Source: Ulota crispa
Lineage: Eukaryota > Streptophyta > Bryopsida > Orthotrichales > Orthotrichaceae
DNA: 64,000 bases
Assembly: GCA_963920765.1 (NCBI GenBank)
Contig: OY987249.1
Coordinates: forward strand, 8,618,817-8,682,816
Direction: 5' to 3'
A program made the position numbers and the translations under genes. How positions within the stretch are numbered: the stretch's first letter is position 1; each line of letters starts with the position of its first letter. Positions 35,726 through 63,908 of this stretch are shown piece by piece. Under the pieces are notes generated by a model. That model saw only the letters and a list, made by a program, of their open reading frames with translations. It was not told the origin of the DNA and searched no databases.

Positions 35726-35974
35726 TTAACCCCTGAGCGCCCAGCCCATATTCATCAAAATTTAGACTCACTCACACTCAATCCAACCAAATTGTCATCA
35801 CAAACAAGATTCACAAAATCTAACCATATTGAATGGTAAGTGAGACAAGCTCCAAAGTATAGGGAAAAGGACAAATGGTTTGACTGTACCAATAGAAAAA
35901 TTATAACAAGTCAAACAAGAACTTTTTCATTTTTGAGCGCCCCATTTTGAGGTCTTGAGGCGCTTAGGGGTTAA
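35726..35974. mobile_element. TTAA-flanked piggyBac-like MITE (249 bp)
   Basis: The ends read TTAA CCCCTGAGCGCCCAGC and, from the other side, TTAA CCCCTAAGCGCCTCAAG, so short inverted repeats starting CCCCT sit directly inside TTAA on both sides. This matches piggyBac-type insertion (TTAA target, CCC start). It is noncoding. The interior differs from the longer copies elsewhere in the window. Confidence 0.7.
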
Positions 35975-36676
35975 GTTGTCACCATAATTGAGCATAGGAA
36001 CACAAATTGTGTAGGTGGCAATTTAGGATTGCATGTTACATGGTCTCTGTGTGGTCGTTTTTTCATTTTAATTCAACCATTTCTATGAGGGTCTAGTGTC
36101 CACAATAGGTGAGTCTAGAGAGGTACCTTCAACAATTTGTAGTTTATTCATACAATCTCAGAAAATTCCAAAAACAAGCTTTCAGCACTCTTTGCTGGTT
36201 TCCTAACCCTTCTACAATTTCAGAATTTCATAATCTTGATGCACACTCCTAGTGAATTTTTCAATCTCGGTGCACACTTGTAGTGAATTGATTTAACAAA
36301 AGTGTCACATTTAGGTGCTTCTACCTTATTAGGTTCCCAACCTTATGTTCTGTAGTGTGATGCTCCCAGCAAAATTGACAGGGTAATGTCTCCTGATTGT
36401 AATTGCTATAATACTAGTTGAAAAAGCAATATTGACGATACCAGAACAGCATCAACGTCTTCTAGTCTGCAAGATACTAAGGGTGGCTTTACATATGGGG
36501 GCCAAGCCAAGTGATTGCATCAAAGGGCACTAATCCTGTTTTTTGATTGGACAAAAAGCTAAAATCAGCCCCAACCCCCTTACATCTAATGGCAAGGCCA
36601 ATTTGGTGGAATGAATTTTTTATTCAACACAGACAAGATTTGACATGGCCCAAGCTCTCTGAATTGGGTGCACCAA
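35975..36676. other. intergenic DNA between two elements
   Basis: No gene was recognised. The 60-codon frame at 36547-36729 runs into the end of the CACTA element and is not supported. Confidence 0.5.
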
Positions 36677-36830
36677 CACTAGTAGAAAACTCTGTTCAAA
36701 ACAACAGAAAATCAACAGTTTCTTATTGATTTGGGTACTTGCCCATGCTAATTGACTAATTTAACAGAATTTTGTAAAAAACTAAATACATTTTGTTAAT
36801 TTGGACACCATTATATAAATCAACAGAAAT

Positions 36831-37345
36831 TTTGGAATCTCTGAGAATCTTTTGGAAATCCATGAGAATTCTTTTTGGAATCTTTAAGAATCTATAAGAA
36901 TCTTTTTGAAATCTTTGAGAATCTTTGAGAATCTTTGAGAATCTTTGAGAATCTTTGAGACTCTTTTTGGAATCTTTGAGAATCTTTTCAAAAAAACTAA
37001 GAATCTTTGAGAACCTTTGAGAATCTTGAATATCTTTGAGAATCTTTAAGAATCTTTGAGAATCCTTTTGGAATATTTTAGAATCTTTTTGGAATCTTTT
37101 TGGATTCTTTGAGACTCTTTGAAAATCTTTGAAAATCTTTTAGAATCTTTTTGGAATCTTCTTGGATTCCTTGAGAATCTCTAAGAACTGTTGAGAATCT
37201 TTGGGAATCTTTAAGAATCTTTGAACATCTTTGAGAATCTTTAAGAATCTTTTCATAATTTTTAAGAATCTTTGAGAACCTTTGAGAATCTCTGAGAATT
37301 TTCTTTGGAGTCTTTGAGAATCTATTTTGGAATCTTTGATAATCT
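36831..37345 (+). repeat. GAGAATCTTT minisatellite inside the CACTA element
   Basis: About 515 bp of degenerate tandem repeats based on GAGAATCTTT and GGAATCTTTTT, with unit lengths of 8-12 bp. It lies just inside the left subterminal region of the CACTA element. Confidence 0.9.
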
Positions 37346-39224
37346 TTTTGAAAATTTTATGTATGAAATTTGTTGAAAGACCTCAAAATCTTTATAAAAA
37401 TAGAATCTCTTAGACTCAATTAGTGTTGTTTTAGAATTTTTTTGTAATTCATTAAAATATTTTAAAATATTTTTTCATAAAAAACTATTAGAATAGTTTG
37501 GGTTGTTTTTGAAATCTTTCTAGAATATTTTTGGACTACATGAAAATGTTTTGAATTTTTGAAAAATAAAAGAAGTTTTCAAAAAAATTAGAATCTTTTA
37601 GAATTACTAGTGTGGCTTTTTTCTTCATTTTCCACAATTTGGTATAGTTTAACATTAGTAGCCTTTAAAGTCTATTAAAAACACTACCAAAACAACAAAA
37701 ACTCATTAGTTTTTTCTTAATTTGGACACTTTTGGACAGGACCAAACAACATAAAATCAACAAAAAACTGTTGATTTGGACACTTTAGGACACTTCATTA
37801 ATTCCACAAAATTTTATATAAAAAGAACAACACTTGTTGTTTTAAATACCAAAATTTCTTTATTAAAAAATATAAAAGATGCTCCTCAATTCTTTCAGAA
37901 AATCATATATGTCCCTCAAAGATCAAAAGTATAAAAAATACCCTTGGCTTTTTGCAAAAATATCAACAATGCCTCTAATCTACTAGGAAAATATTAAAAA
38001 TGCTCCTCAACTATTTTAAATTATCAAATAAATCCTTGTGTAATTTGAAAGAAAAAAAAAACCTATCTTTGCTTTTGTGTAAAAATGTCAATTAATCTAT
38101 ATTCTTAGATTTTGAAAATACTATAAATACCTCTAGTTTTTTTGTGCCTTTTTAGTGCAATTCTATTTTAAATAGTATATTAAAAATATAAATCACTATG
38201 TAGTTGATGCAATAGTTTTTGCAATAATAAATCTATATGCAGAAATCCTACAAAGAATTTGAACAACTTGACTATAAGATTGAGTTTGCAATTAACTTGC
38301 CTTTATTTTTAGTGATTTCCATTGTTGTTCTAGTAGTTACAAAAACTTACAATAAAAAAAGTGAATTATGGGAACTTGCAATAGCCTCAAAAATAACTAA
38401 GGGTACAGTTTAATTGATATTCTTACATAAAACAAAGGGAAATTTTTATATTTCAAATAACACAAGAGTATGTTTGCTAATTCAAAATAAAAGAGCATTT
38501 TTGATATTATCTCAAAATGATAGGGGTACAATTGACACTTTGACAAAAAACAAGAGTATTTTTGATATTTTAAATCATTGAGGGGTAAATTTCATGTTTG
38601 AAACAACCAAAGAGCATTTTTAATACTTCCCCTTATTTTATGAATTAGATCAACAAAAACAAAAAAATCTTATGAAATATTTTTGGAATTTTTAAAAAAG
38701 ATTCAAAAGGCTTCAAAATATTGTAGAATCTTTTTTAATCTTTTGGATATTTTAAAATTTTAATTGTATGATGACAACTTTTTAATTCCATAACTATTCA
38801 AAATTTGATGTTTTTTTAAGCTAGCAAACTACAGAAGCTACTTTTACATAATAAGAGTTTTGTTTACAAATTTTTTTTTTTAAAGAAATGAAGGCAACCC
38901 TCACTTGCAACAATTATTTTGAGATTTATGTATTTCAATCAAAAGTTATAAACAAAAATCAAAGGGGTGGAAATAAATAATTTTTTAAAATTTTTGAACC
39001 CCTTCTTTGGTTTTTGCTCATAAATTTTGATTAAAGATCTCAAATCTGAAAAAAATTGTTGGAGGTGAAAGTAGACTACATTAAAAAACTTTTTGTAATT
39101 TTAAACTTTTTGAAAAATAGTCTTCTACTAGGCCGAAATAGGCTTCAAAGTCTACTGACTTTGCAAAGTAATTGATTTCTAGTGTACAAATAGATTATTG
39201 GTATCTTTGTGTGCACACATTTGT

Positions 39225-39420
39225 GGGCATAGTCTAGTGGTATTTGGTGTGGAGATACGGCACTGGGAGGCCGGAGGTCTGGGGTTTGACCCTAGCCCCG
39301 GCACTTCCTGCCAGCGCCTTTGGGTGCGGCGCAGCCTCCCAGCTGCAACACTGGGTGGGATTGAAATTTTAATTATTTATTTTTTGTTTATAAAATAAAA
39401 AACAATAATTATGAAAAAAT
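39225..39420 (+). mobile_element. tRNA-derived SINE
   Basis: The head resembles a tRNA gene. It has a box A-like AGTCTAGTGG (39231-39240) and a box B-like GGTTTGACCCT (about 39283), spaced as in RNA polymerase III promoters. A short GC-rich body ending CACTGGGTGGGATTG follows, then an AT-rich tail. It sits inside the CACTA element, so it inserted later. Length and layout fit a plant SINE; target duplications were not resolved. Confidence 0.7.
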
Positions 39421-39681
39421 TATATATTGATAAAAAATAATATTTAACAACAAAAGCTAACAGAAAAATAAGCAAAAATTAACAAAAAATCAACACAAAA
39501 TAACAAAAAATCAACAAAAAAACAACAAACTCTTGTTGAAAAGTATCCAAATCAACTTGACTAAAGTCACATATAAAATCAACAGATTCAAGTTGAAATT
39601 TTGTTGATTTTCTATAAAATTTTCTACTAGTGCAAAAATGGGAGGCCAATTCTTGGCCTTGGGGCCAATGTCAAGTTTCAT

Positions 39682-39683
<2 letters not shown>

Positions 39684-39750
<67 letters not shown>

Positions 39751-39751
39751 T
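39684..39751 (+). repeat. (AT)n microsatellite
   Basis: About 68 bp of alternating AT, with one GT interruption near 39737, followed by a poly-T run. Confidence 0.97.
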
Positions 39752-39809
39752 ATAATTTTTTTTTTTTCTCCAATAGAATGGGTTATACTAGAAGCCGGGC
39801 CACGACAGA

Positions 39810-39985
39810 AGCCAAGGGGATGGGGGGAATGGGGGAATGGCCGGATGGGGGAATGGCCGGATGGCCGGATGGAGGGATGGCATGAGGGAGGTGGCTAGAT
39901 GGGAGGATGGCTAGATGGGGAGATGGCTAGATGGGGGGATGGCATGGGGGGATAGGGGGATGGCATGGGGGGCATGGGGCATTTA
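39810..39985 (+). repeat. GGATGG-based minisatellite
   Basis: G-rich tandem repeats built from GGATGGC, GGGGGAATGGCC and GGCTAGATGGG blocks. It is strongly purine-biased on the plus strand, in contrast to the AT-rich surroundings. Confidence 0.9.
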
Positions 39986-40035
39986 GCTTGCTAAATGGGT
40001 TTACTAATTACTTGTGTAGGCTTGCATATTTTGTA

Positions 40036-40455
40036 CTCCCTCCATCCCAATATAAAGCTCCAAATTAGGCATAGTTCTTGTCCCACTAAGAAGCTCCCTT
40101 TTGCTAATTTCAATTGTTGAGAAAGCGTTTGTCATGTCCAGTGATTTCATGGGGGCAAGTTAAGCAATTAAAGAGCATTCCTCTCCTAACAAGCTTGGCC
40201 TTGCCCATATGAGGTACCATTGTTGCTACTAATCTTTAAATCATCAATAATGAGGAACTGGCAGCATGTACAAATATGGTACTTTTTGCATGCAATTTGG
40301 GAGTCTAAACGGCAACATAAAAACTGGAGATTTTTCAAACATTTGGTAGGTGGTATATTGATTCTAAAATGCATTTGTCACTAGCATAATGACTAAAAAT
40401 ACAGTTAATCCCTCATGGAGAAGTTTTTTGGAGCTTTATAATAGGACAGAGGGAG
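40036..40455. mobile_element. Stowaway-like MITE (420 bp)
   Basis: The left end CTCCCTCCATCCCAATATAA and the right end TATAATAGGACAGAGGGAG form the CTCCCTC-type inverted ends typical of Stowaway (Tc1/mariner) MITEs, flanked by TA on both sides (40034-35 and 40456-57). The interior is closely related to 51672-52095, sharing for example AAGCTTGGCCTTGCCCATAT and GAGGTACCATTGTTGCTAC. Confidence 0.85.
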
Positions 40456-40457
40456 TA

Positions 40458-41918
40458 TCTATTTGCAAATTGTTTTTTTCCTTCTATGCTTCTCATGAAG
40501 TATTCAACCTTGCATATGCTGATATGTTGATTTCTTTTTCTATCATCCTTTATGCAAGATACTCTTGATGATCCATAACTCATAGTATATATTTTGCTAG
40601 ATATTATCTGCATAAAACTTGATTTATGGAAGAACAAATCAATATGAAAAAAATATTATAAATACTTTGTGGTTGATAAAAAGAAAATAATGAAGGCAAT
40701 TGGTATAATATACCTTGATAAGGTAAACAAAGAACTTAAGAGTTTGTTTCAAACTTCATGTTTAGGGTTCATGCACATTTTGGCAACGTCCCCCTCTGTC
40801 TAATTGGCTATTTTTTGGTGTCTATCATCATGTCATTGTTTCAAATTTAAAAATAAAATTTAAAAAAACTAATTAATTAAAAAAGAATTGTGGCATATTC
40901 TCACTTTACATTGCAACAAGAACCACTATCTCCAAAGGCTAGCTTTTTGAAAACAAGCCATGACCCATAAGAGATTTTTGTCACAACTTCTCACCTCTAG
41001 TGTAAAGATGACTTAACTTTATTGAATTGACCCAGCTCCTTGGCCTCAAGGCCTTTACATATGAGACAATTAACCCACACTATAATCTTATTTTAATTAG
41101 TAGTGGAGGCCGACCTTAAGCAAAATGTGGGCTGAAATTTGAGGCAATCGGCCCCTAGCCAAATTGGCCCGGCCCCCATATGTAAAGCGGCCCTGAGCTA
41201 CAACACTTAACGTATCACAAATATCAAGATGTAACGAAGTCCCTGTGCTTTCAAGGGAGACTATTCTAATTGAACATTTCATACTAATTCCAGAAAATAG
41301 GTATATCTTTACTACTACGAAAGCCATGCTTCCCGTGACACATCATAACCTTCAAAAGCTCAAATTTATTCGTTTGTCTAGAATTCCATTCTGATCCGTC
41401 TGAGTCTATTTTGGGGAGAATTGCCAATCTCCGCTGCTCTCTGCTTGCTCGTCAAACCATCGAATATTTCATTTAGAGATCTACCAACACCATGGCAATG
41501 CAACCAATCTGCTCGAAAATCTAAATAAGGTAAGCATTAGTAGACCAAAAATTGGCTGAAATCCAGAACATACCAGCCTGGGTTAATCTTCTCAGTAATC
41601 CAACCACGCCTAATCACTCAACTGTCAGCCCTAGTTCCAAAGCATCCAGTACCTGTAAGGTCTTCAAGAAACAAACACGTGTCTCTTCGATCTCCAGTAC
41701 AAAACTCTAGCAGCTGCACCTCAGGTAGTGCGCAACTCCTGTGCACTTGCTATTTCTTTTCTCTGCTCACACAATCGTCCAAAGTAAAGTTCATGGATTT
41801 AAGAGACTGTCAAAGACTTAACTCATCATCATTTGCAAGATCTGCTATGGCAGTTCCGTTGATTTGGACCAAGAATGGTGGATCAAAGAAGCAGAATCTG
41901 AGTTGAATGATTCGTATA
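40458..41918. other. intergenic region 3' of the EF-P-like gene
   Basis: No gene or clear element was recognised. Short frames here (including 41679-41906) show no domain or codon signature. The part next to 41918 should contain the EF-P-like gene's 3' UTR, since that gene is on the minus strand. Confidence 0.5.
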
Positions 41919-44900
41919 TCAGCACTTAGAAATTAACCTGTGTCCCCATGTATTTCATTTGACGCAAGGCAAGTACTCTACTAATACAAAGGGTATATTA
42001 GAGGTACTGAACTTGGACAAGAGTGCAGAAACGCACCTAGTAATGTAAGCATTTTCTGCTGTGTCAATGACCACCCTATCACCTGCAGTAATAAACGATG
42101 GTGCCTGCACATAATGCAAGTAGTTCAAAACTTCTATATTCTAAAGAATGTTATAATAATGAGCCAATAAACAAAACGAGGCTTTTCGAAAATTGCAAAC
42201 AATTTCCCAAAATCCATGTAAACGGTGAATAGAAAAACGGATCGAAATAGCTCAACTAACATCCAATCAAGTAGAGTTACTGCCACAGTTGATCCCATCG
42301 TAACAACTATGTCAGAGCCATTAGCATACAGAAAACCAATCAGAAACAAATTGTACAGCTGAAGGGATCATCACAATACAATCCCCTCTTCATTAAAGTC
42401 GCCAAACAATTACGCTTACCCAGGACTGAAAGTTTTAGAAGAGGGCTTCGGGTAGCTTACCAAAATAGTTTGACCATTCTCCAGTACGATACGCTTGTAC
42501 CTGAAACAATTGTAGTAGCCATTTAATTCTTTGAACCAGGGAAAGCACTCTCGTGGTGCGCTGAAAAGGGAAACCTACATTTTACTACTATTTTGTAAAC
42601 GCATCTCAGCATATATCAAACCATATTAAGAGTATTGGTAACAACATCCCTGAACAACATGATTGCATTTCATTGATCATGGGTATTTTATCAGAGAGGC
42701 AAGAACGTCATGTTGCAGTAATTCAAATCACTGTATCACATTACTCACGTCGGTGTTGCGGATTGGCCTTTGAAAAATGGTTCTGCTTCTGAGACAGTGC
42801 AGGTGACTTTCGGTGGAACAGTCGCAGAAAATGGCTGACCATTGTATTGCTGAACCATCACTTCCATACCATCTGCTCTGCACAACAGAGAATGATCAGA
42901 TGACCAAAATCGAAAGGAAACTCAAGATGACCCGTCCAGAAAAGTTGATTTATCCCAATCACCATCAGAATCCAGGATAAACAACGAGCCAGTTGAAATC
43001 ATTGAAAATATAGAGACACATGAAGAGACAGAAACCCATCAGGTCAGAGATTTTTTGTTTATTTTTCCATTGGTCGAAAGACATGCACCCTAGAATGCAC
43101 GCAGGTAAGAAAAAAATGATAGAATCGTTTATGCGTAAACATTCATCCGCAAATCAGCGAATATTGGTAACATTAATCCAATATCTGGCACACCTAATGT
43201 TTTATTTTGAAGGATTTGGCGATTTCATCCATTTTCACCCAAAATGTTTTAGCGTTACGGTAGCCAGTTTCAGAATGAGGTAAGATTCTGGCAAAAATTC
43301 ACCCAAAAATAGTTCGCCTACATCAGGTATCCGAATAATACCTGACAAGTAGGCCACTCCACTGCCTAGCATATCCTTCGACAGTTCTAGTTGCTCAAAA
43401 CTTTTTGGTCTGCGTATCACAACAAAGTCAGAATGATAGGAAGAGCAGCCATTCCTTTACTTTTACAAAGAATGACAACGATAAATAAGAATACAAGAGA
43501 ATAATGTTAAACGAAGAAAACTGGGGACAAATCCGATCAGACGAGAACCAGAGAAGAGTTCACATGGTTTTACGGCCCAAGCCATCCCAATCAAATCAGA
43601 AGAGCCATAGTAAACTCACTCCATCAAAACAACACTGGAATCTTCCATGTACAAGAAAGTGTAGAGTTTCTCGTCCACAAACACTCCTGCATCAAAGATG
43701 AAGTAAATAACCAACAAACGGAGACGAAGCTTGAAACTTCAATACAAGCGAACTACCATCGTGGATATAAAGCACAAGCTCACTAGTTCCAGGATTGTCA
43801 AACTCGCTAAATAACATAAAAACAACCGAAGCAGCTAACTTTTACCAAATCAAAAGGCTTACAAGAAATACTTGACTTCCTTGTCAACACCTCACCGTAA
43901 AAGCATGCTAAGGATCTTCAAGAAGTTTAGAATAACATACTTTCAATAGATTCAGATGTTCGAAATCTTTCAATTAATTTAAGCCCGCTCTGCACGTCCC
44001 GCAGCTCCACCTATTTGAAGACCACGTAATCGTAACGTTAACAAGTGGACTTGGCAGATTACGTGCTATACCCTTTAGAAGCATCAGGTAAACATCTTCT
44101 CCAATCAGGTAAAATACTTTCAACAAAAGTGCAAAGATAGTCGTGCAGTGCATATCAATGATTCTAAATGTGATTTCATAATTTGCTCAAGTGTCTAAAA
44201 CCGTTACTAGATATGCTAACGATTCTACTGTAGTGCTCACATACTTATTAGCTATAGAAAGATTGGTAGAAGATTTGCTGAAGTTAGCTGCATTGTGAAC
44301 ACTGGTGCATATATCACCTGAATAGTTGCTCCACCTCGACCTTGCTGAGTATGCTGTGTCTTCATTACCTGGTTAGAAGGACACACTTCTTAACCACTTT
44401 TCTATTCAATAGGCTGAAATCACTCTAAGCATGTAATATCGCAAACATAAGTTGCAGTTTGCTGATCTTCATATTGTCAAAAATAAAGACGAAAGACCAC
44501 AATTTAAAAAAAGTATCGGTCATCTAGAAGTTAGCATTACTGCTACAAAGCCAGGTGAGAAAAGGGCACCGTACCTGGTAAATGCGTCCTGCCAAGGTCA
44601 TCAAATACCATCAGGATCCGTTGATCAGCCTTGCTGAACTAGTCCAGAAACAACAGGAACTAGAGCATCACATGCATGCCGAAGCAATTTCAAGGCATCC
44701 CAGGGTTGCAACGCACGATGCGATACTTGAAAATTATCCCCGTTACACTCACAAATTCTTAATATTGATTAAGAGGCGTTGAATTCAAGTAGTCGTCATG
44801 TAAAGTCAATATTGAATCAATGTTAAGTTAATGTCAGAGTAACGCAAACGATGTTAGCTTTACATCACACTGTGATGTTAGTATCAATAAAATTGAGTTG

Positions 44901-48325: not shown

Positions 48326-48331
48326 TTATTA

Positions 48332-48893: not shown

Positions 48894-51800
48894 ATGGTGC
48901 GCCTCACAGCTGCGTTGATTTCTGCACTCAACGATGGTTGCGATCTGGCCACCATCGATACACTCTCCGTCCCCAAACGCTACTTTCACGAGGTCAAACT
49001 CTTCTTTTTTTCCCAACTCAACTCTCTCTTCTCTTCTCTCTCTTCCAGAGCTTTGCTTTCTTGCGAATATTTTCTTCTTCTCAATATCACGATTGAATCC
49101 AGAAAGCTCAAAAATTGTCATCGTTACAGATATCAGGCATTGATGTATGCGTGAAGCTATCGCGATTGGATATCTCTGGCAACAGCATCACCAATCTTGA
49201 GGTAAAAAAGCAATGTTTTTCTTGTTTCAGTTTTTTTCCGTCTTTCTTTTGCTCTCCATAAATTGCACTCAGGTTTAGTTTCAATAGTTTGAAGGTTTTT
49301 CAAGTTTCGTGTGTGCTTACAACTTATGAAAAAAGTAGAGTTAACCCTTAAACGGCGAAGGAGACGATTTTTGTCCCCTGGCCATAAAAAAAAATCACTC
49401 TGTGGGCAGAAAATAGCAGTTTTTTGTCTAATTTTTTTTAGAGGTGATCATAAACACATGGTCCATCATACAAGTTAAAAAATTATCTCATGAATTGCAC
49501 TCACATTTTTCAGCAACCCAAATTGGGAGAAATTTCAGAGTCACGGTGTTAGGTCCCAAGCTGTAGTTTTCATGAGGGCACCATGCACTATTGACTTTTG
49601 CAACTTTTAAAAGTAATATTTTAATGTGTGGGCACCACTGTAGAGATCACTGCCACCTTTGAACACTGTACAGGCAGGCACGGTGACCACCCTCGGCGTT
49701 TAAGGGTTAAACACAGAATTGACCTTAAAAAAACTGCAGTCCAAGGTTAAGATATACAGAAGAGTTTTGTTTTATTCTAATACAGGTTTTACTAGTAGTA
49801 TTGGTGGTATTAGGTTTCTGATATGATGTGCACATGGCTGGAGATGATGCAGAGTATATCTATGTGCACCAATTTGAAGTGGTTGTCAGTTGCAGGGAAT
49901 GGTCTAACCAGCTTGAAGGGAGTTGAAACCCTACCAAAACTTACAGTGAGTTCGTTTTCTCTGCTCCCTTTGTCTTTTGTTTTCTTCGAATTTGCTTTAC
50001 CATACTGGTCTCTCTCTTTCTCAAACAGGAGCAAGATTCGTAGCATGATGATTTTTTATGTAAAGTTTGCAAATCTGAGGATAACGTTGCGTGTACTGAT
50101 GATTGGGTGCAGGTGCTGAACGCCAGCCGTAACGCTATTACTTCAGTCTCTGAGATATCTAGCCTTGTAGAACTGCGAGCTCTTATCCTCAATAGTGAGT
50201 TCCTTTACTTTGTAACATTTCCAGGTCATGGCTGTTCATCAAGTTAGAGAATGAACAATGTGGAATGTGCGAATTAGGGTTAGTAGGATATGATCTTTTT
50301 ACACGAGTCTTGTCCTTGAATGAGGGAATTAGGGGAAGTAAGATATTTGGTTTTTTACACTAGTTTCGTGCTTGATTATTTGATATCGTAATTCTATTCC
50401 TTGCGAGTTGGATCCTGATCTTGAACAAGATTTACATTCTACTTTAAAAAAAATTGATTCATTATGTTTGAGCTTCAGATTTACTACCAAAGTTTCTGAA
50501 TATCGTCGTGTTTCTGATGCAGACAACGAGATCACACGTGTCACTCGTTTTGATAACCTTGTAAAATTGAATACCTTAGGTGAATGCACTTTTTTTTTTC
50601 TTGTTTGTATTTATGTTGACCAGTTTATGATGATCACTTTCTTTTCTAAAACTGTTTATTTTGACTAAATCATATGGATGTGGAGTTTGTTTGGCGAAGA
50701 GGTATACAAATGCTGCATAATAGCTGACGAGTTGCATTCCATATTGACAGTGTTTTCACATAACCCAATCAGGGAGCTGGGGAAATCGTTAAACAAGCAA
50801 TTAGAGCTTACGAAGGTATGTTTAATCCATTGCATTCTTCCATACGGTACATCACACCACTCCTTTACGAGATTGCTTGCTTTTCCCTTTCCTGGCAAGG
50901 ATCTCCTGATCCTGTATGTTTTGTCACGTATGCAATTAGTAATGATCTGCATTAATTAAATGCATGTTTAGTGAGCTATTTTTTTATGGTTTAAAGGTAG
51001 CTGGCGTTTCTGTTTTCAGCTTTCAGTTTCTCATTGTCGAATTCAAATGCTGGGAGCGTCATTGAAGCGTTGTGTAGCGTTGGAAGAACTACGGCTAGCT
51101 CACAATCAATTATCGGTATTTTTTTCTTTTACCATTTTCTAAGCATTTCGAGATGAGCATTTCTTTATGCCGAATCTGGAGCCATATCTGATAGTGTGTT
51201 TGTTTTTTTTTTACCAGGACTTGCCAAAGGAGTTAGAAAGGAACGGAAGGCTTCGTATTGTTGACCTTGGCAGCAATAACTTGCAAAGTTGGCAAAGCTT
51301 TCAGGTACTTTAATTTTGTTCCTAGACTAGTCCACGTCGTTTATGACTGAACCCGACTTCTGTTTACTTTGACTGATTACTAGGATTTTAGTATGAGCTC
51401 TTTGCATACTTTTTGTTACCTTTTTGACTACCATATGGTTTAAAATTTTGACCCACATGTGGAAACAGGTGCTCAAATCTTTGCACAGTCTATGCAACCT
51501 CAACCTCCGCGGCAGTCCCATCTGCTCAACACCAAATTTTGAGCAAGAGGTAAGAAAACCGATCTGGATCTTTTCAGGTTTTTTTCTTGTTCCTTTGTAA
51601 TGGAACTTATTTACAGTTCTTTACAACCTCCTCCCAGACAGCTCGGCAATGAAGAACTTCCAGATGATATACCCCCTTTTGTCCCTCTAAAAAGCTCTAA
51701 ATCAGACACATTTCTTGTACCACTAAAAAGCTCCCTTCCCTTTTGCTGATTTCAAACTCCGAGAAAGCGTTTGCCATGTTCAATGATCTCATGGGGGCAA

Positions 51801-52659
51801 GTTAAGCAATTAGAGAGCATTCCTCTCCTTGCAAGCTTGGCCTTGCCCATATGAGGTACCATTGTTGCTACTAATCTTAAAAACATCAATAACGATGAGT
51901 TGGCAACATGCACAAATATGGTACTTTTTGCATAGGTGCCCAAACGGCAACATCAAAGCTGGAGATTTTGCATACATTTGGTAGATGGTATATTGATTCT
52001 AGAATGCATGTGTCACTAGCCAGCACAATGACTAAAAAACATAGTTAATCTTTTGCAAGGAAACTTTTTGGATGTTTTTAGAGGGATAGAGAGAGTAGCT
52101 TTTTGTCTGTTTGTGTATCTGAGCTTCTTCTGTTCTAGAAACTGATTATTTTTAATCAACGCAGGTGAGGAATCTTGTTCCAACTCTGCAGATACTAGAT
52201 GGGCATCCTCTGGTCCCTGGCAAAGTGAAACGTAAGTACGACGGAAAGAAAGTGTTCTCAAAGGAGAGAACTACTGAGACCGTTGTGGAGGATGAACATG
52301 ATCAAGCAAAGAAAAAGTTCAAAACTACTGTAGACAAAATTAGTGAACAAGGGATTAAGGACGATGATGCACCTGAGAAACCTTTTGTTGAGTTGATCAA
52401 GGCCCAGCCTGTATTGATTAACAGACCGTTGGATGTTCGTCAAGACTCTGGCGTGGTTGCTGTAATTGATGTGAAGAAAGCAGCGGTTGGAGTGTGGAGG
52501 AAGAAACAAGGGATTGAGGCATTGACTGCATTGACGGAGCCAGAAATTGGAACAGGAGGTCCATCAAGTTGGGATACTCCTAGTTTTGTGAATGATGCTG
52601 CTGCTGCCGCCAAGCAGCCTTCCACTACTTACTCTAGATGGGCATTGAAAAAAAAATAG
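48894..52659 (+). CDS. SDS22-type leucine-rich-repeat protein with a lysine-rich tail
   Basis: Ten exons join in frame: 48894-48992, 49130-49201, 49853-49945, 50113-50194, 50523-50579, 50751-50815, 51020-51115, 51218-51304, 51469-51549 and 52165-52659, giving about 408 residues. From residue ~37 to ~245 there is a run of 22-23-residue LRRs of SDS22 type, for example LSRLDISGNSITNLE, LKWLSVAGNGLTSLKGVETL, LRALILNNNEITRV and LRIVDLGSNNLQSW. Exons tend to hold about one repeat. The last repeat passes into a cap-like LQILDGHPL, then a charged, Lys-rich tail of ~150 residues ending SRWALKKK. Such LRR domains bind partner proteins; no catalytic domain is visible. A telobox pair precedes the gene. 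Introns 2 and 9 host MITEs. Function unknown. Confidence 0.88.
49341..49710. mobile_element. TTAA-flanked piggyBac-like MITE in LRR intron 2 (370 bp)
   Basis: The left side reads TTAA CCCTTAAACGGCGAAGG and the right side, inverted, TTAA CCCTTAAACGCCGAGGG. These near-identical inverted ends start CCC directly inside TTAA. It lies wholly in the intron between 49202 and 49852 and is noncoding. Confidence 0.8.
51672..52095. mobile_element. Stowaway-like MITE in LRR intron 9
   Basis: A relative of 40036-40455 across its whole length, with ends CCCCCTTTTGTCCCTCTAAA and TAGAGGGATAGAGAGAG flanked by TA. The interior retains CAAGCTTGGCCTTGCCCATA and GAGGTACCATTGTTGCTAC. It occupies most of the intron between exons 9 and 10. 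Confidence 0.82.
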
Positions 52660-53069: not shown

Positions 53070-53099
53070 TTGCACGCTTTTAGAACCTCCTACCTTATG

Positions 53100-53924
53100 C
53101 TCTAATTGTGACCCTTTCATGTAAAGTGTGCCATAGGTAGCATAAGAATGGATTTGAAGTGGATCTTGAATGGACCTTGAATGGACCCCTCTAAAAAGAA
53201 AATGTGTATTTTATTACAATAGCCAATCATATTCCATAATTTCTCCTCATCTCTTCACAAGTTTGCAAGGCAATGGTTTATGGAAAACCTAGAGTCACAA
53301 ATAGGTGTCTACTTTAGAAAACTTTGAAAGTTCATCAACAATTCATAAACCCTTCAACAACCGGTCGACCACTTTGTGGTCAATCCGGCCTCTTTTTCAT
53401 GTATAGGAAGAGAATGGCAATGAATTTGGAGATTAGCCAAAGAGGATGTGTCTGAGGAATTGGGAAGTGAAGAGTATAGGACAATCACTAGCCCAATTTG
53501 AGGTGGCATGTGGCCAGAGGGTTGAAAAAATAAAAAGAGTACCGGCTGAAAATACACCAATGGATACAAAAAGATGGTCATAACAACTAAAGAGTGAGCA
53601 TAATTCATGATGCATAACACTAAGCCCTGCAAGATACTTCCATTTGTACAGTCAGATCTGTGGTAGACATCTGTATTCAATAGTTTTAAAATTTCCCCCA
53701 AATGGCCATACAAAGGATAGCCCACCCCAAAATTGACCACAGTTGTCAAAGGGTTAACACCTTAAAAATATGAAAAAGTTGTGTTACATTTTAACATCCA
53801 TGCATTTCTCTTTGTCTTAAAGCTAAAGATTTCTTTTTGTCTTAAAGCTAAAGATTTCTCTTTGTCTTAAACCTAAAAAAAATCTTTCATGTCTTGAAAA
53901 GCCCATGAAAAGGCAGACTAACCC
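53100..53924. mobile_element. relative of the 4139-4546 element, interrupted by another insertion
   Basis: Segments 53110-53345 and 53760-53920 match 4170-4520 in order and orientation. Between them lies about 400 bp absent from the 4-kb copy, whose ends (CCCTTCAACAAC at about 53350 and, inverted, TTAACCCTTTGACAAC at 53757) resemble the TTAA/CCC element class. A 26-bp tandem repeat (three copies of a CTAAAGATTTCTCTTTGTC unit) lies at 53806-53872. Confidence 0.6.
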
Positions 53925-54527
53925 TTAACCCCTAAATGCCCAAGGCACCACATTTTGGTGCCAACAATATTCTAAAGTTTTATAAAACCTAGCTAAGCTG
54001 CTATTTTTAGTGCTTAGTATATTAGAATTATTCTCTTTGATGTCTAGTTTTAGCATCAAAAACCGGATTTTGAAAAATACTGAATGTGAATTAGTGTTGA
54101 GAACTCACAAAATGAGCCTCAAATACACTAGATCTTGGAGAAAGATTCACACTAGAAACTCATTTTAAAAAATTGTAAAAGAGATTTTGAAAAACCATAA
54201 ATGGATTGGAGTTATGTAAGTGATGTCCTTTAACCTCATATTTGTTTGGTGACAGCATTTTAGATTTCACATTTGAAAAGAGGATTGAAAGACTTGAACT
54301 CATTTTTGCAATTTTAACACCCTCTTGATCAAACATTATAATTTTTCAATCCATAAGTGATATTATTGTATTTTCTTTTCCTATGTGATATCTAACATGT
54401 CTAGTTTGGGTTTGTATGGTTACAATTTTAAGAAAAATTGATTCAACTTATCAAAAGATTGACTTTTTATTTAGTTTAGAGCAAATTCCTAGAAGCTCAA
54501 AAAAGGCCTTGGGCATTTAGGGGTTAA
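53925..54527. mobile_element. TTAA-flanked piggyBac-like MITE with perfect ends (603 bp)
   Basis: The first 22 bp (TTAACCCCTAAATGCCCAAG onward, 53925-53946) are the exact inverse of the last 22 bp (54506-54527). TTAA forms the outermost 4 bp on both sides and the 18-bp inverted repeat inside it starts CCCC. The interior is AT-rich and noncoding. This is the best-preserved member of the class in the window. Confidence 0.85.
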
Positions 54528-54847: not shown

Positions 54848-54919
54848 ATCAGAGTGGCGCAGCGGAAGCGTGGTGGGCCCATAACCCACAGGTCCGAGGA
54901 TCGAAACCTCGCTCTGATA
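54848..54919 (+). tRNA. initiator tRNA-Met (CAU)
   Basis: The 72-nt cloverleaf folds well. The acceptor stem AUCAGAG pairs with CUCUGAU and ends in discriminator A. The D stem is GCGC/GCGU and the anticodon arm GUGGG-CCCAUAA-CCCAC has anticodon CAU. The T arm is CGAGG-AUCGAAA-CCUCG. The A1:U72 pair, the CCCAUAA loop with its GGG/CCC stem and the AUCGAAA loop in place of TΨC mark a eukaryotic initiator rather than elongator tRNA-Met. Compared with the common plant sequence as I recall it, pair 50:64 is switched from C:G to G:C. No intron and no genome-encoded CCA are present. A T-run lies about 35 bp downstream. Confidence 0.95.
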
Positions 54920-55418: not shown

Positions 55419-55765
55419 AAAAAAAACCATAGTAATTTGAAACTGATGACCATAACTTCCAGCAAGTCAAACTACCGCTACAAAGTTAAATAAACCCTTT
55501 TCTTGTGGTTTTATTGCATAAATAAAAAAATTAGCATCGAATGTTGATTTTGTTAAGAATGAAACTGTTGTTATATTTCTGAAATCAAATTATGACTGCA
55601 GTATGAAATCAGTTATACTTTGCAAGAATATCCAAAACAAATTCAGAAAAGTTGAAATTTGAGATTTAAATTATTCCATGTTATAAAGAGTGGATTGTTT
55701 GTCTGACTTGTGATATTATTTTACACCAATATCACAGTTTCTATGAGAGAGGGAGGAAGGGAGAG

Positions 55766-55881
55766 AAAAGGCACCCAATTGGAGGGTGATGAGTCATTGG
55801 AATTTTTTGAATTCTATTTCCTTTTGTAAGATTGAAATTTTCTATTATAAAATATTGAGAGTCAAGCATTGGGTGCCTTTT
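55766..55881. mobile_element. short element with 14-bp perfect inverted ends
   Basis: AAAAGGCACCCAAT (55766-55779) and ATTGGGTGCCTTTT (55868-55881) are exact inverse copies bounding 116 bp of AT-rich DNA. Target duplication is unclear. Confidence 0.5.
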
Positions 55882-56041
55882 AGTCATCTAGAATTTAAAA
55901 TTCAAAGGATACATTACAAACGCATGGTTCAACTAGAGGGTGTAGTATAAAATTTAATACGATTAGAAAGATACTTAGTTAGTGAAGAGCAATTAGACAT
56001 TGCATAATTCACTCTATAGAACTAACATTTTCCTGTTTTCA

Positions 56042-56280
56042 TTAACCCTTGAGCGCCCGATCAACATTATATTGTCAATGGGCCCACAAGCTTTATCTCA
56101 TGTTTTTTTCTCAATCTGTATGGTGAAAACAATCATGGTTGGTCCCCAGTAGCAAAGAAGGTAGTCCTTTTTCAAATCCTACAATCACTTTTTCTGGATG
56201 TAGTTTTCCAAGCTGTGGTGGCCATTAACCCTCCCATTTTCTCCTAAACCCTAAAATAGCTCTGGGCGCTAAGGGGTTAA
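56042..56280. mobile_element. TTAA-flanked piggyBac-like MITE (239 bp)
   Basis: Ends read TTAA CCCTTGAGCGCCCGA and, inverted from the right, TTAA CCCCTTAGCGCCCAGA. The GAGCGCCC motif is shared with the copies at 35726 and 62766. It is noncoding. Confidence 0.75.
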
Positions 56281-56803
56281 ATTGCATATTGTGTGAAAGA
56301 TAATATATCACAAAAGGATCTGCCACCAAGATGTTGCTTAAGAAGCAAGGCAAACACACCCATTTCCAAGCGCAATTCCACACCCTGGAATTGGAGGTTT
56401 TATCATACACTATTGAATCCAAAGTGGAGCAATGAACGTTGCTTGCACAAGCTAATCATATCATATGTCAATTGCAAAGTTGGCTTGAGAGGGTTGAGAT
56501 TGGAATTGTCAAGTGCCATTGTAGGAACACATCCATGCAGTTTCAAGGTTAGTCAAGAGTTCCTTTTAGGGACCCTGTGAGCTGTAACTTTGCCCTTTAA
56601 TATAAAATATCCTACAAGTCTTTTTTCCACAAAAATGACAATTTGTGACAGCTTGTTGAAATGCTAACCCTATAGATTTTTTTCCTAATTTTTTTGAAAC
56701 CTTATGATATCCTAAACCCTTAATTCTTGAGCACCCTAGCAACAAGAGTAACCCTATAGAATTTTTTCTTGAGTTTTTTGAAAACTTGTGATACCCAAAA
56801 CCC

Positions 56804-57702
56804 TTAACTCCAAGCGCCCTAACAACAAGATCTTGATGCTGCATAGTTTCAAAGGCTTGTTTGAGGTACTACATCTAATTTTTTGATCTTGTTATAAGTT
56901 GCAATTATGAAGGCATTCAAGTTGTCCATGCCAATGGAGTAATGGCGATGAAAGCCAAATTTTGTACAAGTGCTACAAGAGATTTAAATGGGTGAAACAC
57001 CATATGGGGTGTGGTGGCAAGCAAAGTGTCAAAGGCTGCAACTAGTCAATATCCCTTGCAAGCTTCTATGTATGTGCTTTGTAATAGTGGGAGATTTGTT
57101 GGCAAGGATTCAAGCATGTTCTAAACCCTTATTATGGTAACCCTCACCAACTATGCTGGTCATTATTTTCCATGCAATAGCAATTTGAAGTCCTAAAAAT
57201 TGACATAAAAACTACACATAACATTGTTCACTAGGTTATATTCCTCCCCCCAACTGTGGAGGGATATTCCCCCTATATACTAGTAGGCTGATTGGTGAGG
57301 TCAACAACTACCGAATAGCATTTGCTAGAGGATCCTCATCTTGGGGAAGCAAAAGGAGACCCCCCACTAAAGGTTAACAATGTTATGACAATCTCCAATA
57401 ATTTACAAGTGTGTGATTACATTCACATCTAATCTTATTGCTCACAGAATTCAAAAAGAACCAAGGACTTAAACTTTTTTGTAAAAAACATTAAATAGCA
57501 ACCACCTACCAAATAAGAGGATTTTGTCATCACATGTTGTTTGACCAATCATTTTAATCTTCCCACAATTAATTGTTCCCAAGATCTGCAAGCCATGTAC
57601 TAAGTAGGTCCTCCCTATTTTCAATGATCACTTGTTGTGAATCATCCGATCGACTGAGATACTATAGTTTCGGTGAAAATGGCCTGGGTGCTCAGGGGTT
57701 AA
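56804..57702 (-). mobile_element. piggyBac-like MITE, inverse relative of 62766-63548
   Basis: The right end GGCCTGGGTGCTCAGGGG followed by TTAA (57699-57702) matches the inverted left end of the 62.8-kb copy. The interior (56850-57560) matches that copy in inverse orientation, for example AAGGCATTCAAGTTGTCCAT and CCATATGGGGTGTGGTGGCA. The left end TTAA CTCCAAGCGCCC is degenerate, and a similar CTTGAGCACCC motif is repeated just outside it. Confidence 0.7.
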
Positions 57703-58584
57703 ACGCTCGGAAATGTAAACCCTTGAACGCCCTTGAACGCTCGGGAATGGGTATGTCTGCCTAAACCCCTACTCAGAGAACAGAAGCAAGAGGCCAAACT
57801 CATCTAAGAACAGAAGCAAGAAGCATTTCACATTTTCATACTAATTATGCCAAAACTCATCTAAAGTGAAAAAGCCTCGCCCTATCCAGAGTCGTGCATT
57901 AATTGAAGTAACCCAACCCAATTGAAAGCCTAAGTATACAACTGTGCAGTGCAGATCAATGAATGTGATGTACACATCTGTAAGATCCAATTCTAGTTCG
58001 TGTTTACCCAACCAAGTTCAAAACTGCAATCCGCTCGTGTTTTATAATTACAGTCCTTGGACCTAAGTGGGCAATGCAATTCATATGTTTCCACGCAGGA
58101 AGAGCAATTCTAATAGAACAGCGAATACTTGTCCTGGTGACAACAGCACTAGGAAGTAATCTATTCAGTATCGACCAGCTCTGCTCGCAAAGCAAAACCT
58201 GAGTGAAAGATCATCACAAATTGAGACTTTAGAATCACGCACACGAGAAACATAGAATCTGCAGAAAGATACCAGTAATCGTAACCCAAATAGTTTGATT
58301 CGGGAGAGAGCGAGGGAAAAATATTACTAGTTCCAGATCATGAATGTTCAACGTCAAAATCTGGAAGAGAAAATACTGCAGAAGTTAGCAAAATGGTCAC
58401 AAAACAGCACTGCTATAAGGCATACCAACAGACAAACAGAATATCATTCCTAGAGAAGTCAAGCCGATATGCTACACAAGTAGTCTTTGGTGCATCCATA
58501 CGCTCGCACCTGTAGCTACACAACAAATTCAAACCATCCTCTTGCTCTCATTCAGGAGAGATTAATGCGACTTTCAGTGCATGA
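57703..58584 (-). other. 3' flank of the RING gene
   Basis: Probably includes the 3' UTR of the minus-strand RING gene next to 58584. Short frames here have no support. Short repeats of TTGAACGC occur near 57720-57745. Confidence 0.45.
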
Positions 58585-61500
58585 TTAAACTCGTACCCAA
58601 ACCGAGGAAGAGCGTGACAACTGGACTGCCAGGTCAGTATCGTAGGCCTTCCTACAGCCTGGGCAACGCCCGTCGTCTGATGAGATTCTGTGGTAGCAGA
58701 ACAGACACAATTGAAAGCCACAGGTGCAAGGCAAATATGACGAGTCTGTCATATCAAGCTCCTCCGTGCATATAGGGCAGTAAGATGGTGATGCAGGTTG
58801 TTGATTCTCCCACATGTTTCCGTGAATGTTACCCCAACCTTGGTGGTTGTTATTGCTCGAGTGGTTGGAGTACGCATGCTGCACCCTAAGCCTCGGCAAT
58901 GTTGGAGGTCGAGATACGTCATCAGAGCGCCAAGCCCTTCCACCATTTCCTCTCCTGCCTCCGAAACCAGAGTTCCTGTATCTATACTCAGGTTTCAATT
59001 TAGCAATCTGAACATCAGGGTGGTGGTGATAATGTTGATAGTGGTGATGATGGTGATGATGAGCGCCGTTCTGCTTTTTATCGTGCAGCTCTCTGGCATC
59101 ACTGTGGAGAGCACGATCAGAACTAAGACCCTTGTGTGCCCCTTCAGATTGACGCGAGGAGCTCTGTATATGCAATGCATCAAAAGCAGATTCCCAGTCA
59201 TCCTCCGCGTCGTGAGACTCGTCATTGCCTTCAGAGTCACTCCCTGTATAGCTGCTACTCGCACAAGAGCTATTTGACCTCGGTTTGCTTGCATCGCTAC
59301 TTGAACGCCCATTAGTAGCCAAATCCTGTCGACGCTCACTTTCTCCATGCAGCTCTTCTTCATCCCTAAAATACCTGGGTGCCCTGGAAGCAACAACCTG
59401 CCTTCTCCCTGGAGCCTCCTTTTTTGTATTCTTCACATCATTGCTCGTGCCACTGCCTGAGAAGCGACGGTATATAGCAGGTGAACCTACAGGTGTTCGC
59501 TCACTCATAGACCCACTTGAACTCGAACCTTGACTTCGAGAGTGTCCTGATGAACCTGTCCTTTCCTGCGCCATGCACTCCCCACCCTCAGCCTTGTAAT
59601 GATGTTCACAATTCCACTGACGTGGCTCAACACTTAATTGCTCCTGTTCTGCTTTCCCTTCCTTTCCTGAATAACGAGCAGGAAAAAACAAGTCATAATC
59701 TTGTAAAGCAGAAGATTAAAGAACAAATTGCTAGCTTTCGTATTTGCAGCAAACATGATATTCTTCGAGACAGCACTTCATATTTCTGGTGGTCATAAAC
59801 TACAAATGCTATAAGTTGTTGATCCTACCATTAGAAACTGACATATCCGCATGCATAAAGAATTGTCCAAAAGATAATTTATTACGTCTATTATTTTCCT
59901 TCTGCTTCAAAAGATAGAGCAGAGAATACGGGTTATCTCCTAGAACTGACATGTTACACCAACCACCAATGCTATATACATAATTGGAAAGGCAAACATA
60001 CAGAAAACCTCTTACTGAAGTAAAGGCAGCTTTTAACTTAAGCATACTAATCACCAGGGAGGCAGGGCTTCCAGGTAATAATAAAAGACATGATTCACAC
60101 GCAAATGACTCTAAACTTAGGAAGAAAAAAAAAGACCTATCACTCGAAACAACACATGAGATCAAGCTGGATCCTAACCTGTCATTACTCTCTTCTCGGT
60201 TCTTAACTGTTGTCTTCCAAAGCTCTACATGTAAGAATCTCTACCTTGTGAACCTTGTGACAACCACTGTTCTCTGCGAGCGTCCAGCTTATACTGCTTC
60301 ATTTCAGCAGACCGGTTCACCTGATCACATGTATCATATCTCTCAGTACTGTTTTAATACTAGATGGTCTTTGAAGAGAACCTTCTCATCACATCATTCC
60401 ATCAACGTTCAAATACCTCTACAAACCTGCTTCCACACCTGGTATGTCGGCAACTACCGAAGTGGAAACATTCAAGAATATAGTCCTACTAAAATTTCAC
60501 TCCTTCCAATAACAAGACAATATCTGAAATCCTCTAGCCTACTTGCAATTTCTGGAGAATAGCAAACTACAGAATGAACACACCAATATACAAAAATACG
60601 AAGATAAATATGAAAGAAACCACTTCAATCAATCAAACATGCCACCACAATCCATTCAAGCGCAAAACAGACAGAAATTAAGATAAAATTAAGGAACAAG
60701 GTTGAGTACCAAGAATGCAAATGGCACGCCAATTCTACGGATAGCTTCTAAACACCTAAGCAACCCTACAACACTCGTATCTCAGAGTCAACAAAAAAAC
60801 TTAGCACTGAACTTAAAACCTCACTGCAATGCCTACCTCTACCTGAAACTCCAAAAAAATGAGACAGCCCTCAACTAGGGCTTAAGCAGACATAAGCGGA
60901 CTGCGCAAGACCTAAACCTCCTCACACCCGAACCGTGCATTCAATTTGCGTCTCCATGCTTGCGCATGTATTCTAACAAAGCCTAGTTCATTACAAAATG
61001 CTAGCCTAGAGACAAGGTTATACCACAAACTGCTGCAAGTACGCATCTTGTCTTCCAAGAGAACAATCTCCAGAGTAAAAATCAATTCGACTTATGTATG
61101 AAAGCCACGAGGGTTAAAAGATCTGCAGCAGGTGCTACAAAATAAGCTCGCAGAATGCAAAATTTCAGGCAATCAAATTGTCAATGTGCAGCACGTACCT
61201 TGGAGAATGAATCAAATTATGGAATTCTTGCGAAGGATCCACAAGTATCACAACCCAGTAAAAACCCCCTTAAAAATAAATCATGCATATAGAGGTGCAT
61301 GTTACCAGTATCTAGACAACCACTCTATCCGATATCTCTATTTGCAAAATATGGGAGGAAATGAAGAAAATTCAAGCTGATGGTAATGCATAAACAAATT
61401 CAACATTCGAAACAGAAATTGCATTAACAAATGCAGAGATAAACACACATGGTAAATAAACTCAGCCCCATTCCCCTGCCGACACTTTAAAAAGGGGTAC

Positions 61501-62327
61501 TTTATCATGGAAATGTCAATCCTACAAAATTCTTGCGACGCTCCACAATTTGCAGGAAGATGAAGGGAAAATTTATAGGTGGTAGATCTACACACACTTC
61601 GAAGTTCGAACCTATCCAATTCACACTCGGATCAGCCACCGACTGAGCAAAACTCGTGAACTTTCGAAAACCAGCAAATCGAATCAATACCGACAGAAAT
61701 TGCATCAACAGCAACACACACGGATGCAGATACAATTGTATACACTAAACAATTGCCGACACTTTACAAAGAGTTACCTCCTCTTCCAGCATGACACGTG
61801 TCGGCATCGCAAATCCAGAAACACTCCATACATTTCCGACGATGAGTGAAAAAATTAGAGGTTTTCAGATCTACAGACATTTCAAACCCCTACTATTCGG
61901 ACGCATCTAATAAGAAGAACTAGCGCGCGCCCGTCGACACAGAAAATTTCCAAAAAAGAGATCAAAGAGGCCATATCCAAATAGATCCTTAAATATCATT
62001 GCATGAAAAGAAGTTTCAAATCACGGATCGGGCAAAATATCGTACCCTCTTTCGACGACTGGCGCTTAAGAATTCCGCCCTGAACTGCTGGTTATCCTCG
62101 CAGTTGTTGTTGCCGTTAATGCACACCGTGTCATCCTCACGAGCCACCGACTGCAAAGGCAACATCGCGCGGTTTCCGTTCTGACCTGAAGCTCTACCAT
62201 CGCTGCTGGTGCTGCTTCTGCTGCTGCTGCTTAGCCCTTGCGCGGTGGAAAGCGAGTTGGAAGCGGCCATATTGGAACCACATTCCACCACCATACTCGA
62301 TCGACTCCGGAACTTCTTCTGCTCCAC
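58585..62327 (-). CDS. plant RING-finger (C4C4-type) protein
   Basis: The last exon, 58585-59699, starts in phase at an acceptor preceded by a long pyrimidine tract and encodes ~370 residues. Near its end CPIC, PCTC, CLFC and CPGC supply eight cysteines with spacing like the NOT4-type RING (CPICTEELDMTDSSYLPCTC, then GFQLCLFCYHRIS and GRCPGCRKAYD), implying E3 ubiquitin-ligase activity. Upstream motifs DDWESAFDAL and RAWRSDDVSRPPTLPRL fit a plant family of such proteins. A His-rich run (seven consecutive His) and Ser-rich tracts are low-complexity. The proposed first exon, 62046-62327, has ATG at 62327 and a GTACG donor but ends in phase 0, whereas the last exon needs phase 1. At least one middle exon is therefore unplaced, or the first exon is wrong. 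Telobox AAACCCTA occurs at 62548. Confidence 0.75.
59700..62045 (-). other. large intron region of the RING gene, unresolved exons
   Basis: About 2.3 kb separates the two exons I can support. Possible donors on the minus strand lie near 61195 (CAAG|GTACGT) and 61775 (GAGGAG|GTAACT). No translated stretch next to them has recognisable motifs, so no middle exon is called. Confidence 0.45.
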
Positions 62328-62727
62328 GCTGTTCGAACCCCTGAATGCGTTCTCCGTCGTTTGTATGTGGCTTGGAATCAGAGCAGGAAATAAGAAGGAT
62401 TAAGTTACTGGAAGTGATGAGGAGTGCGACGATCGGGGGCAGGTTGACCAGAAAGTCGGCAACTCGATGAGCAGAAAGAACGGAGCAGGAGCACCATGGA
62501 AATGAAACGAGGGAGAAAGCTCACGGACACATGGCGTTCGTCGAAACCCTAAATACGTGCGGGCCCTGCTGCTGAAGAAGATGAAGTCACTGCCGGCTGC
62601 CGAGCCAACCCCCGAAGCTCGCCCCGTGCCTGAGAGATTATCGCCTCGGCTGCTGTGCCCACGGCTTCATTTGAAAATCAGTGTTCGGGGAGAACCGGTT
62701 GGACCGGCAGTTAGTCTATTTACTCTA
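62328..62727 (-). promoter_or_regulatory. upstream region and likely leader of the RING gene
   Basis: GC-rich DNA between the proposed ATG (62327) and the foldback element. It carries a telobox, AAACCCTA, at 62548-62555. A short plus-strand frame at 62557-62745 lacks support. Confidence 0.4.
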
Positions 62728-63908
62728 TGGGGAAATTACAAATAGGGGCACGAAAACAAAAAATATTAACCCCTGAGCGCCCAGGCCGTATCCACCAAAA
62801 TCAGGGTTTTTGGAGACCGACAACTTTGATGCATCGTATCTCGGTCAATCGAATGATCCTCAAAAAGTGACTATTGAAAATAATAGAACACCTACTTAGA
62901 AAATGGTTTGCAAACTTTGGGAACAATTCACCGCGGGAGATGGGAGATTATAACATTTGATCAAACAACATGTGATGACAAAATCTCAATTTTTGGTAGG
63001 TAGTTGCTATTTGATGATTTTTACAAAATTCTATAAGTCCTGGATTCATCTCAAATTTTGTGAGTAGCAAAATTAGATGTGAATGCACACACTTATAAAT
63101 TATTGAAGATTGCAATTCTTTTTATGTCAAGTTTTAGGGCTTCAAACGGCTATTGCATGGAAAACAATGACCGGCATAGTCGGTGACGGCTGCCATAATA
63201 AGGGTCTAGAACATGCTTGAACCCTTGCCAACAACTTTCCCACTACCACAAAGGACACACAAGGAAGCTTACAAGGGATATTGACTGGTTACAACCTGTA
63301 AACTACTGCTTGCCACCATACCCCATACGATGCAACCACGCCCCATATGGTGTTTACACCCAATCAAACCTCTTGTAACACTTGTACAACATTTGGCTTT
63401 CCTCGCCATTACTCCCTTGGCATGGACAACTTGAATGCCTTCATAATTGTAATTTATAGCAAGATTTAAAAATTAGATCTAGTGCCACAAACACTGTTTT
63501 AAAATCTAGAGCAACCAAAATCTAGCTGCTGGGGCACCTAGGGGTTAAGAGTTTTAAAATAATTATAAGTAGGGGCACAATTTCAAAATACTTTTTTTAA
63601 ACTTTTTTAAAATATTTTTGGTTTGGACATTGAATGATTTAGATACATCACATTAAATGTAAGCAAGCTTCCAAATAATTTAGAGACCTTTCCAAAAATT
63701 GTCATCCCCTCTACTAAGATTTCTTATTTAGGCTTGATTTGGAAAGGCCTTTAAGTTTTTCAAAAGTTAGCTAACACTTAATGTGATGTATCTAAATCAA
63801 CCAATGTCCAAACCAAACAAAATTGGAAAAATTTACAAATTAGTTTGGAATTGTGCCCTTATCTGTAATATATTTTTTGTTTTCATGCCCCTATTTGTAA
63901 ATTCCCCT
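62728..63908. mobile_element. foldback element interrupted by a TTAA-type MITE
   Basis: The left end (GGGGAAATTACAAATAGGGG, CACGAAAACAAAAAATAT) is the inverse of the right end (ATATTTTTTGTTTTCATGCCC, CTATTTGTAAATTCCCC). The inner arms (63560-63690 and 63720-63840) contain TTGGACATTG and AGGCCT blocks related to the foldback family at 33.0 and 47.8 kb. The left arm is broken exactly at TTAA by the MITE at 62766-63548. Confidence 0.75.
62766..63548 (+). mobile_element. TTAA-flanked piggyBac-like MITE (783 bp) nested in a foldback element
   Basis: Left end TTAA CCCCTGAGCGCCCAGG; right end, inverted, TTAA CCCCTAGGTGCCCCAGC. The interior is shared with 56804-57702 (inverse) and 20460-20813 (direct). 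The flanking foldback arm is continuous once this insertion and one TTAA are removed, as judged from the opposite arm. It has no transposase. Confidence 0.8.

Follow-up and report, generated by a model that had tools for sequence, protein, structure and literature searches.

Which kind of transposon is represented by a set of small elements in moss DNA, each flanked on both sides by TTAA and each starting with CCC, and what moves them? The stretch in question, hereafter the window, is 64,000 nucleotides long and comes from Ulota crispa (assembly GCA_963920765.1, contig OY987249.1, positions 8,618,817 to 8,682,816). The original prediction had claimed at least five such elements as a piggyBac-type family in a plant. 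The elements are non-coding miniature inverted-repeat transposable elements (MITEs), being short, with inverted ends, high copy number and homogeneous length, and their sequence features indicate that they are probably non-autonomous piggyBac-type DNA transposons mobilised in trans. Direct reading finds all five present, each flanked by TTAA on either side and carrying C-rich inverted ends:

35726..35974, no strand assigned: TTAA-bounded MITE, 241 bp between both TTAA, ends CCCCTGAGCGCCC and CCCCTAAGCGCCT, 11 of 12 end letters matching
49341..49710, no strand assigned: family C, TTAA-bounded MITE, ends CCCTTAAACGGCG and CCCTTAAACGCCG, 13 of 14 end letters matching
53925..54527, no strand assigned: family A, TTAA-bounded MITE, perfect 18 bp inverted end CCCCTAAATGCCCAAGGC, 18 of 18 letters matching
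56042..56280, no strand assigned: TTAA-bounded MITE, ends CCCTTGAGCGCCC and CCCCTTAGCGCCC, 11 of 13 end letters matching
62766..63548, no strand assigned: family B, TTAA-bounded MITE, 783 bp including both TTAA, ends CCCCTGAGCGCCC and CCCCTAGGTGCCC, 10 of 13 end letters matching

All ten ends of these elements start 5'-CCC, and the inverted ends measure 12-18 bp, one being perfect and four containing 1 to 3 mismatches. Within the window, a search for TTAA-CCC ends that pair at a distance of 120-1200 bp and agree in at least 10 of 13 end letters returned exactly the five elements and nothing else, as against 0 pairs in 500 first-order Markov windows. Single ends of the form TTAACCCYTDR number 14 in the window (mean 0.55, maximum 3, in 100 Markov windows). 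The 193,700 bases that flank copies fetched from the genome contain 90 of them, against a Markov expectation of 2.35.

The genome searched was the window's own (274,817,297 bases in 157 contigs), and the fetched loci, denoted by L-numbers, amount to 273 kb in all, or ~0.1% of it. Every one of the five elements has further copies, those of families A, B and C being found by genome search and those of the other two within the fetched loci. The DNA search scores the best 40 of the candidates counted at first look (5,078 for A, 2,128 for B, 3,454 for C and 3,908 for D), and the resulting lists are lower bounds. Family A (query 53925-54527) has at least 41 listed matches, including the window's own copy and one short piece, with the others at 79-84% identity. 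Family B (query 62766-63548) has at least 40, own copy included, the others at 86-91%. Family C (query 49341-49710) has at least 43, among them its own copy and some matches to the same place, the others lying at 78-86% apart from one 72% piece. The majority length of family A is 654 bp, the window copy being internally deleted. For the element at 35726, full-length copies occur in L069 (91%), L005 (77%) and L070 (68%); for that at 56042, there is a full-length copy in L010 (85%) and one in L031 that is split by the insertion of a variant of family B, designated B'. A further family, D, was met in one fetched locus; it is ~928 bp long with ends CCCCTAAAGGACC, and 40 of its 43 listed matches run the length of the 928-base query, starting at base 1-3 and ending at base 927-928. 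These 40 comprise the query, an identical copy and 38 others at 92-93%.

The expectation that several subfamilies with differing interiors are present is borne out, since interiors are mostly unrelated across families. A comparison that took a single copy from each of families A, B, C and D, plus the 35726 and 56042 elements, gave no similarity at E 1e-3 beyond the termini, where 36 bases are common to B and the 35726 element and 19 to the 35726 and 56042 elements. Stops interrupt all six frames of the A, B, B' and C majority sequences, which have no open frame of note. Mean divergence from the majority sequence is 5.8% for A (8 copies), 7.7% for B (15), 5.5% for B' (15) and 11.9% for C (30 copies, range 5-18%), values drawn from best matches to a query and thus biased young; their spread suggests more than one wave of activity.

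Do the copies end where the TTAA would place them? In family A, homology ends at TTAA and the flanks differ, and the same is seen at the edges of family B, so that the boundaries are observed directly in independent copies. Both edges carry TTAA in 7 of 8 A copies, in 13 of 30 B matches and in 17 of 30 C matches. Fifteen of the other 17 B matches belong to variant B', for which the match to the query stops before the variant's own end; in 11 of these 15, a TTAA-CCC right end lies ~780 bp from the left end. To look for empty sites, the two flanks of each of 154 candidate pairs were fused at one TTAA and compared with the window and all fetched sequence, which gave 29 matches. Part of these are tandem or element-beside-element matches; others are weak and have a letter at the junction that departs from TTAA (for instance L005 versus L015 and L021, and several lower-identity L036 matches). 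Three insertions, in L011, L036 and L031, have clear unoccupied paralogues that carry a single TTAA, and for two of them such sites lie in the window:

40055..40284, minus strand: empty site for the family B insertion L011:1501-2283, 87.2% over 235 columns, inside 40034-40457
51682..51926, minus strand: second empty site for L011:1501-2283, 86.8% over 250 columns, inside the repeat 51667-52097
56105..56280, plus strand: empty site for the B' insertion L031:1458-2240, 89.2% over 176 columns

The L031 insertion, at which that locus's copy of the 56042 element is split, also aligns with empty L010:2700-2525 (87-89% over 176 columns for both sites), and the insertion L036:1446-2226 aligns with empty L069 (84% over 245 columns). 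The host of the L011 insertion is a further copy of the repeat that occupies 40034-40457 and 51667-52097 of the window, and by its TACTCCCTCC ends we take this repeat to be a Stowaway-like MITE. Because these paralogous empty sites hold a single TTAA, insertion duplicates it. TTAA as the target duplication, as originally proposed, is therefore upheld, both by the TTAA edges of copies at different sites and by the three insertions; the unoccupied paralogues, being separate copies of a repeat, do not show excision.

Elements frequently abut, with one TTAA common to the neighbouring ends (L033, L030, L014 and L027, among others), which could mean that elements tend to land next to ends already present, or that some elements are composite. 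GGGG precedes TTAA at 9 of the 104 TTAA edges.

The ends themselves are exceedingly abundant. The pattern TTAACCCYTDRNNG has 47,965 exact matches genome-wide versus 973 for its reversal, the stricter TTAACCCYTDRNNGNCC has 29,415 versus 12, TTAACCCCTRARYGCCC has 6,295 versus 0, and TTAACCCCTAAAGGACC, in which some families end, has 8,154 versus 0. This very high copy number of ends is a direct count. Among the 104 TTAA-bearing edges of the matches fetched for A, B and C, 66 fit the 14-letter end form. Assuming that this fraction holds generally, there would be ~74,000 ends and hence ~37,000 elements, or ~8% of the genome at a mean of ~600 bp, an order-of-magnitude figure only, as the sampled copies are best matches, the count takes in solo and truncated ends, and the mean length was guessed from few families.

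How well does all this fit piggyBac? The rule, as given in passages of PMC2872659 and PMC10175614, is a TTAA duplication, inverted ends of 12-19 bp and a start of CC[C/T]T, and the 12-18 bp inverted ends of the window elements fall within that range. Drawn from ends and target, piggyBac would be the best reading of these elements rather than a proven superfamily. In the scheme that we infer, an enzyme of the piggyBac superfamily, acting in trans by cut-and-paste chemistry, would recognise the short inverted end (CCCYTDRNNG...), excise the element and reinsert it at a TTAA, which would then stand on both sides. Several observations weigh against this assignment. Seven of the ten window ends start CCCC and three CCCT, and CCCC rather than CC[C/T]T is the start of families A, B and D; one coral piggyBac-like MITE family also starts CCCC (CCCCTCAGTGTCCG; passage of PMC2872659). 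A strict 17-letter form of the end is matched by 14 of 16 A ends, 22 of 60 B ends and 0 of 60 C ends, so that the ends resemble one another across families without being identical. The fetched loci contain 471 open reading frames (ORFs) of at least 70 aa and 116 of at least 100 aa, and a Pfam scan of 82 ORFs of at least 101 aa, covering little of the genome, found no transposase domain at E 0.01, the 11 families identified including no transposase. Nor was a transposase recognised by eye in five stretches between opposite-facing ends ~3-11 kb apart (loci L069-L072, L073 and L074), chosen from the first 100 places listed for matches to TTAACCCCTRARYGCCC and TTAACCCCTAAAGGACC. They contain more repeats and a mixture of ORFs; the Pfam scan included ten ORFs from L069-L072 and L074 and none from L073.

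Another TTAA-specific transposase with C-rich ends, either Sola3 or an undescribed plant enzyme, might move the elements instead. Sola3 targets TTAA (the passages that name it give neither target nor ends), no transposase was identified in the sequence scanned, and a superfamily cannot be assigned from TTAA duplication by itself. Nevertheless, the 12-18 bp ends starting CCC closely match the published piggyBac rule, and we consider such an enzyme unlikely. The plant telomere repeat is CCCTAAA, and families A and D begin CCCCTAAA, which can be likened to it, so that the ends could be read as telomere-like sequence rather than transposon termini. However, other families begin CCCCTGAGCG or CCCTTAAACG, and the ends are paired, inverted and bounded by TTAA, with empty sites. 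The empty sites, together with the paired ends, refute the telomere-like reading, which was rejected and whose probability we put close to nil. As for Kolobok-type MITEs, Kolobok uses the same TTAA target and, in a passage of PMC9587614, is recorded in green and red algae; its ends, however, are 5'-RR and YY-3' as described in passages of PMC9587614 and PMC6004289, as against 5'-CCC at all ten ends here. Kolobok was rejected since the window ends depart from this rule, and we regard it as highly improbable. The duplication of TTAA by Kolobok, in combination with the CCCC starts, makes the term 'diagnostic of piggyBac', which had been applied to TTAA targets with CCC-starting ends, too strong.

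Within the piggyBac-type interpretation, or beside it if the enzyme is convergent, a broader proposal can be put forward tentatively, with slightly less than even confidence: a resident, undescribed plant TTAA transposase, of piggyBac lineage or convergent, would have sustained small CCC-ended transposons as a dominant class through repeated waves. TTAA/CCC copies would, in that reading, number tens of thousands and possibly account for several percent of the genome. Such a load of elements with piggyBac's target and similar ends would mean that TTAA chemistry has run at scale in plants, and would suggest where to look for a plant-adapted TTAA transposase, with a possible use in footprint-free genome engineering.

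Three degenerate or partial copies had also been claimed in the window. All are repeats or relatives of the elements, and in two of them only the right end is clear:

56804..57702, minus strand: diverged family B relative, inverted relative to 62766-63548
20472..20813, plus strand: shortened family B relative, right TTAA end TTAACCCTTGAATGCCCC present, left end missing
53350..53757, no strand assigned: repeat with a clear right TTAA end, left end degenerate in the window

The first matches 62766-63548 at 82% over 376 bp and 77% over 284 bp, and its end at 87% over 31 bp. The second matches family B at 83% over 164 and 144 bp, the middle being absent. The third is a real repeat, with four matches in fetched loci at 80-83% over 318-395 bp; its match in L005 starts at 2479, just within a TTAAC at 2475.

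That the host is a plant, as the original prediction held, is supported because plant-type ORFs flank the elements. One, of xyloglucan endotransglycosylase type, has PDB entry 1umz as its best match (E 4e-28), and others have LURP-one-related and xylanase-inhibitor-type domains by Pfam. A transfer RNA gene lies at window 54848-54919 (Rfam RF00005, 54.1 bits), ~320 bp from the family A element, and an ORF of tandem DEYAWAL repeat occupies L003:1-435.

The two identical 928-base copies of family D stand on opposite strands ~6 kb apart (G000:C1:906911-914722); they probably belong to one local inverted duplication rather than marking a recent jump. Midway between them, at ~587-1061 of L071 (C1:910000-919900), ORFs are mirrored around a run of N. 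The window contains a near-perfect inverted duplication of its own (7099-17439 and 22166-32507), with arms of ~10.36 kb that are 98.98% identical and ~4.7 kb apart; the palindrome could be genuine or could have been produced by the assembly. The L071 mirror, like the window palindrome, suggests inverted duplications in the assembly. A 530 bp self-palindrome, 88% identical, occurs at 32951-33480.

Among known systems, Stowaway MITEs, present in the same window (40034-40457), are likewise small inverted-repeat elements; they have a TA target and CTCCCTCC-type ends, unlike the TTAA/CCC elements. Xenopus Kolobok T2-MITEs also have a TTAA target and several subfamilies, although theirs end AGGRR, not CCC, in the part of PMC6004289 consulted. 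Wuneng and Microuli, small elements that generate TTAA duplications, can be likened to the present ones by the description that a passage of PMC2872659 gives. The same source, in the portion drawn on here, offers a close parallel in the coral CMITEs and AmiPB, which combine TTAA duplication, empty-allele evidence and C-starting ends of 13-14 bp, including CCCCTCAGTGTCCG, CCCTTTAAGCCCTA and CCCTTTAACGCCC. The left end of AmiPB2, which has a 543-aa protein, is CCCTTTAACGCCC and matches CCCYTDRNNGNCC at every specified position, but the other four left ends in the AmiPB table do not (same portion of PMC2872659); this likeness would be a resemblance between short sequences, not proof of kinship. 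CMITEs, as portrayed there, are ~100 bp long with an interior common to families, whereas the Ulota crispa elements measure ~240-930 bp, have mostly unrelated interiors, occur in a plant and were found with no autonomous partner.

More widely, piggyBac is described in excerpted passages as widespread in eukaryotes, especially metazoans (PMC10175614), as isolated from insects, fungi and plants (PMC10813416) and as domesticated in ciliates (PMC9942856); a brown-alga table includes PiggyBac (excerpt of PMC12477816). The remark that such elements are rarely described in land plants holds only in part, as PiggyBac is one of seven MITE superfamilies identified in angiosperms, according to the section seen of a review (PMC10004981), and PiggyBac accounts for 1,230 entries in the table of a fern genome (excerpt of PMC6890710). 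The angiosperm elements are likewise plant MITEs assigned to piggyBac, a likeness by name, since the section of PMC10004981 states no ends, counts or transposase. MITEs of all kinds make up 0.06-10% of four plant genomes in a passage of a further review (PMC12595863). The class is easily overlooked: the words 'piggyBac' and 'TTAA' are absent from the main text of that 2025 review of plant MITEs (PMC12595863). A literature search, mainly of open-access main texts, showed among the papers listed no report of a plant genome with TTAA-CCC elements this abundant. In comparison, then, piggyBac MITEs in plants are a known kind, and what stands out in Ulota crispa is the load, at perhaps tens of thousands of elements.

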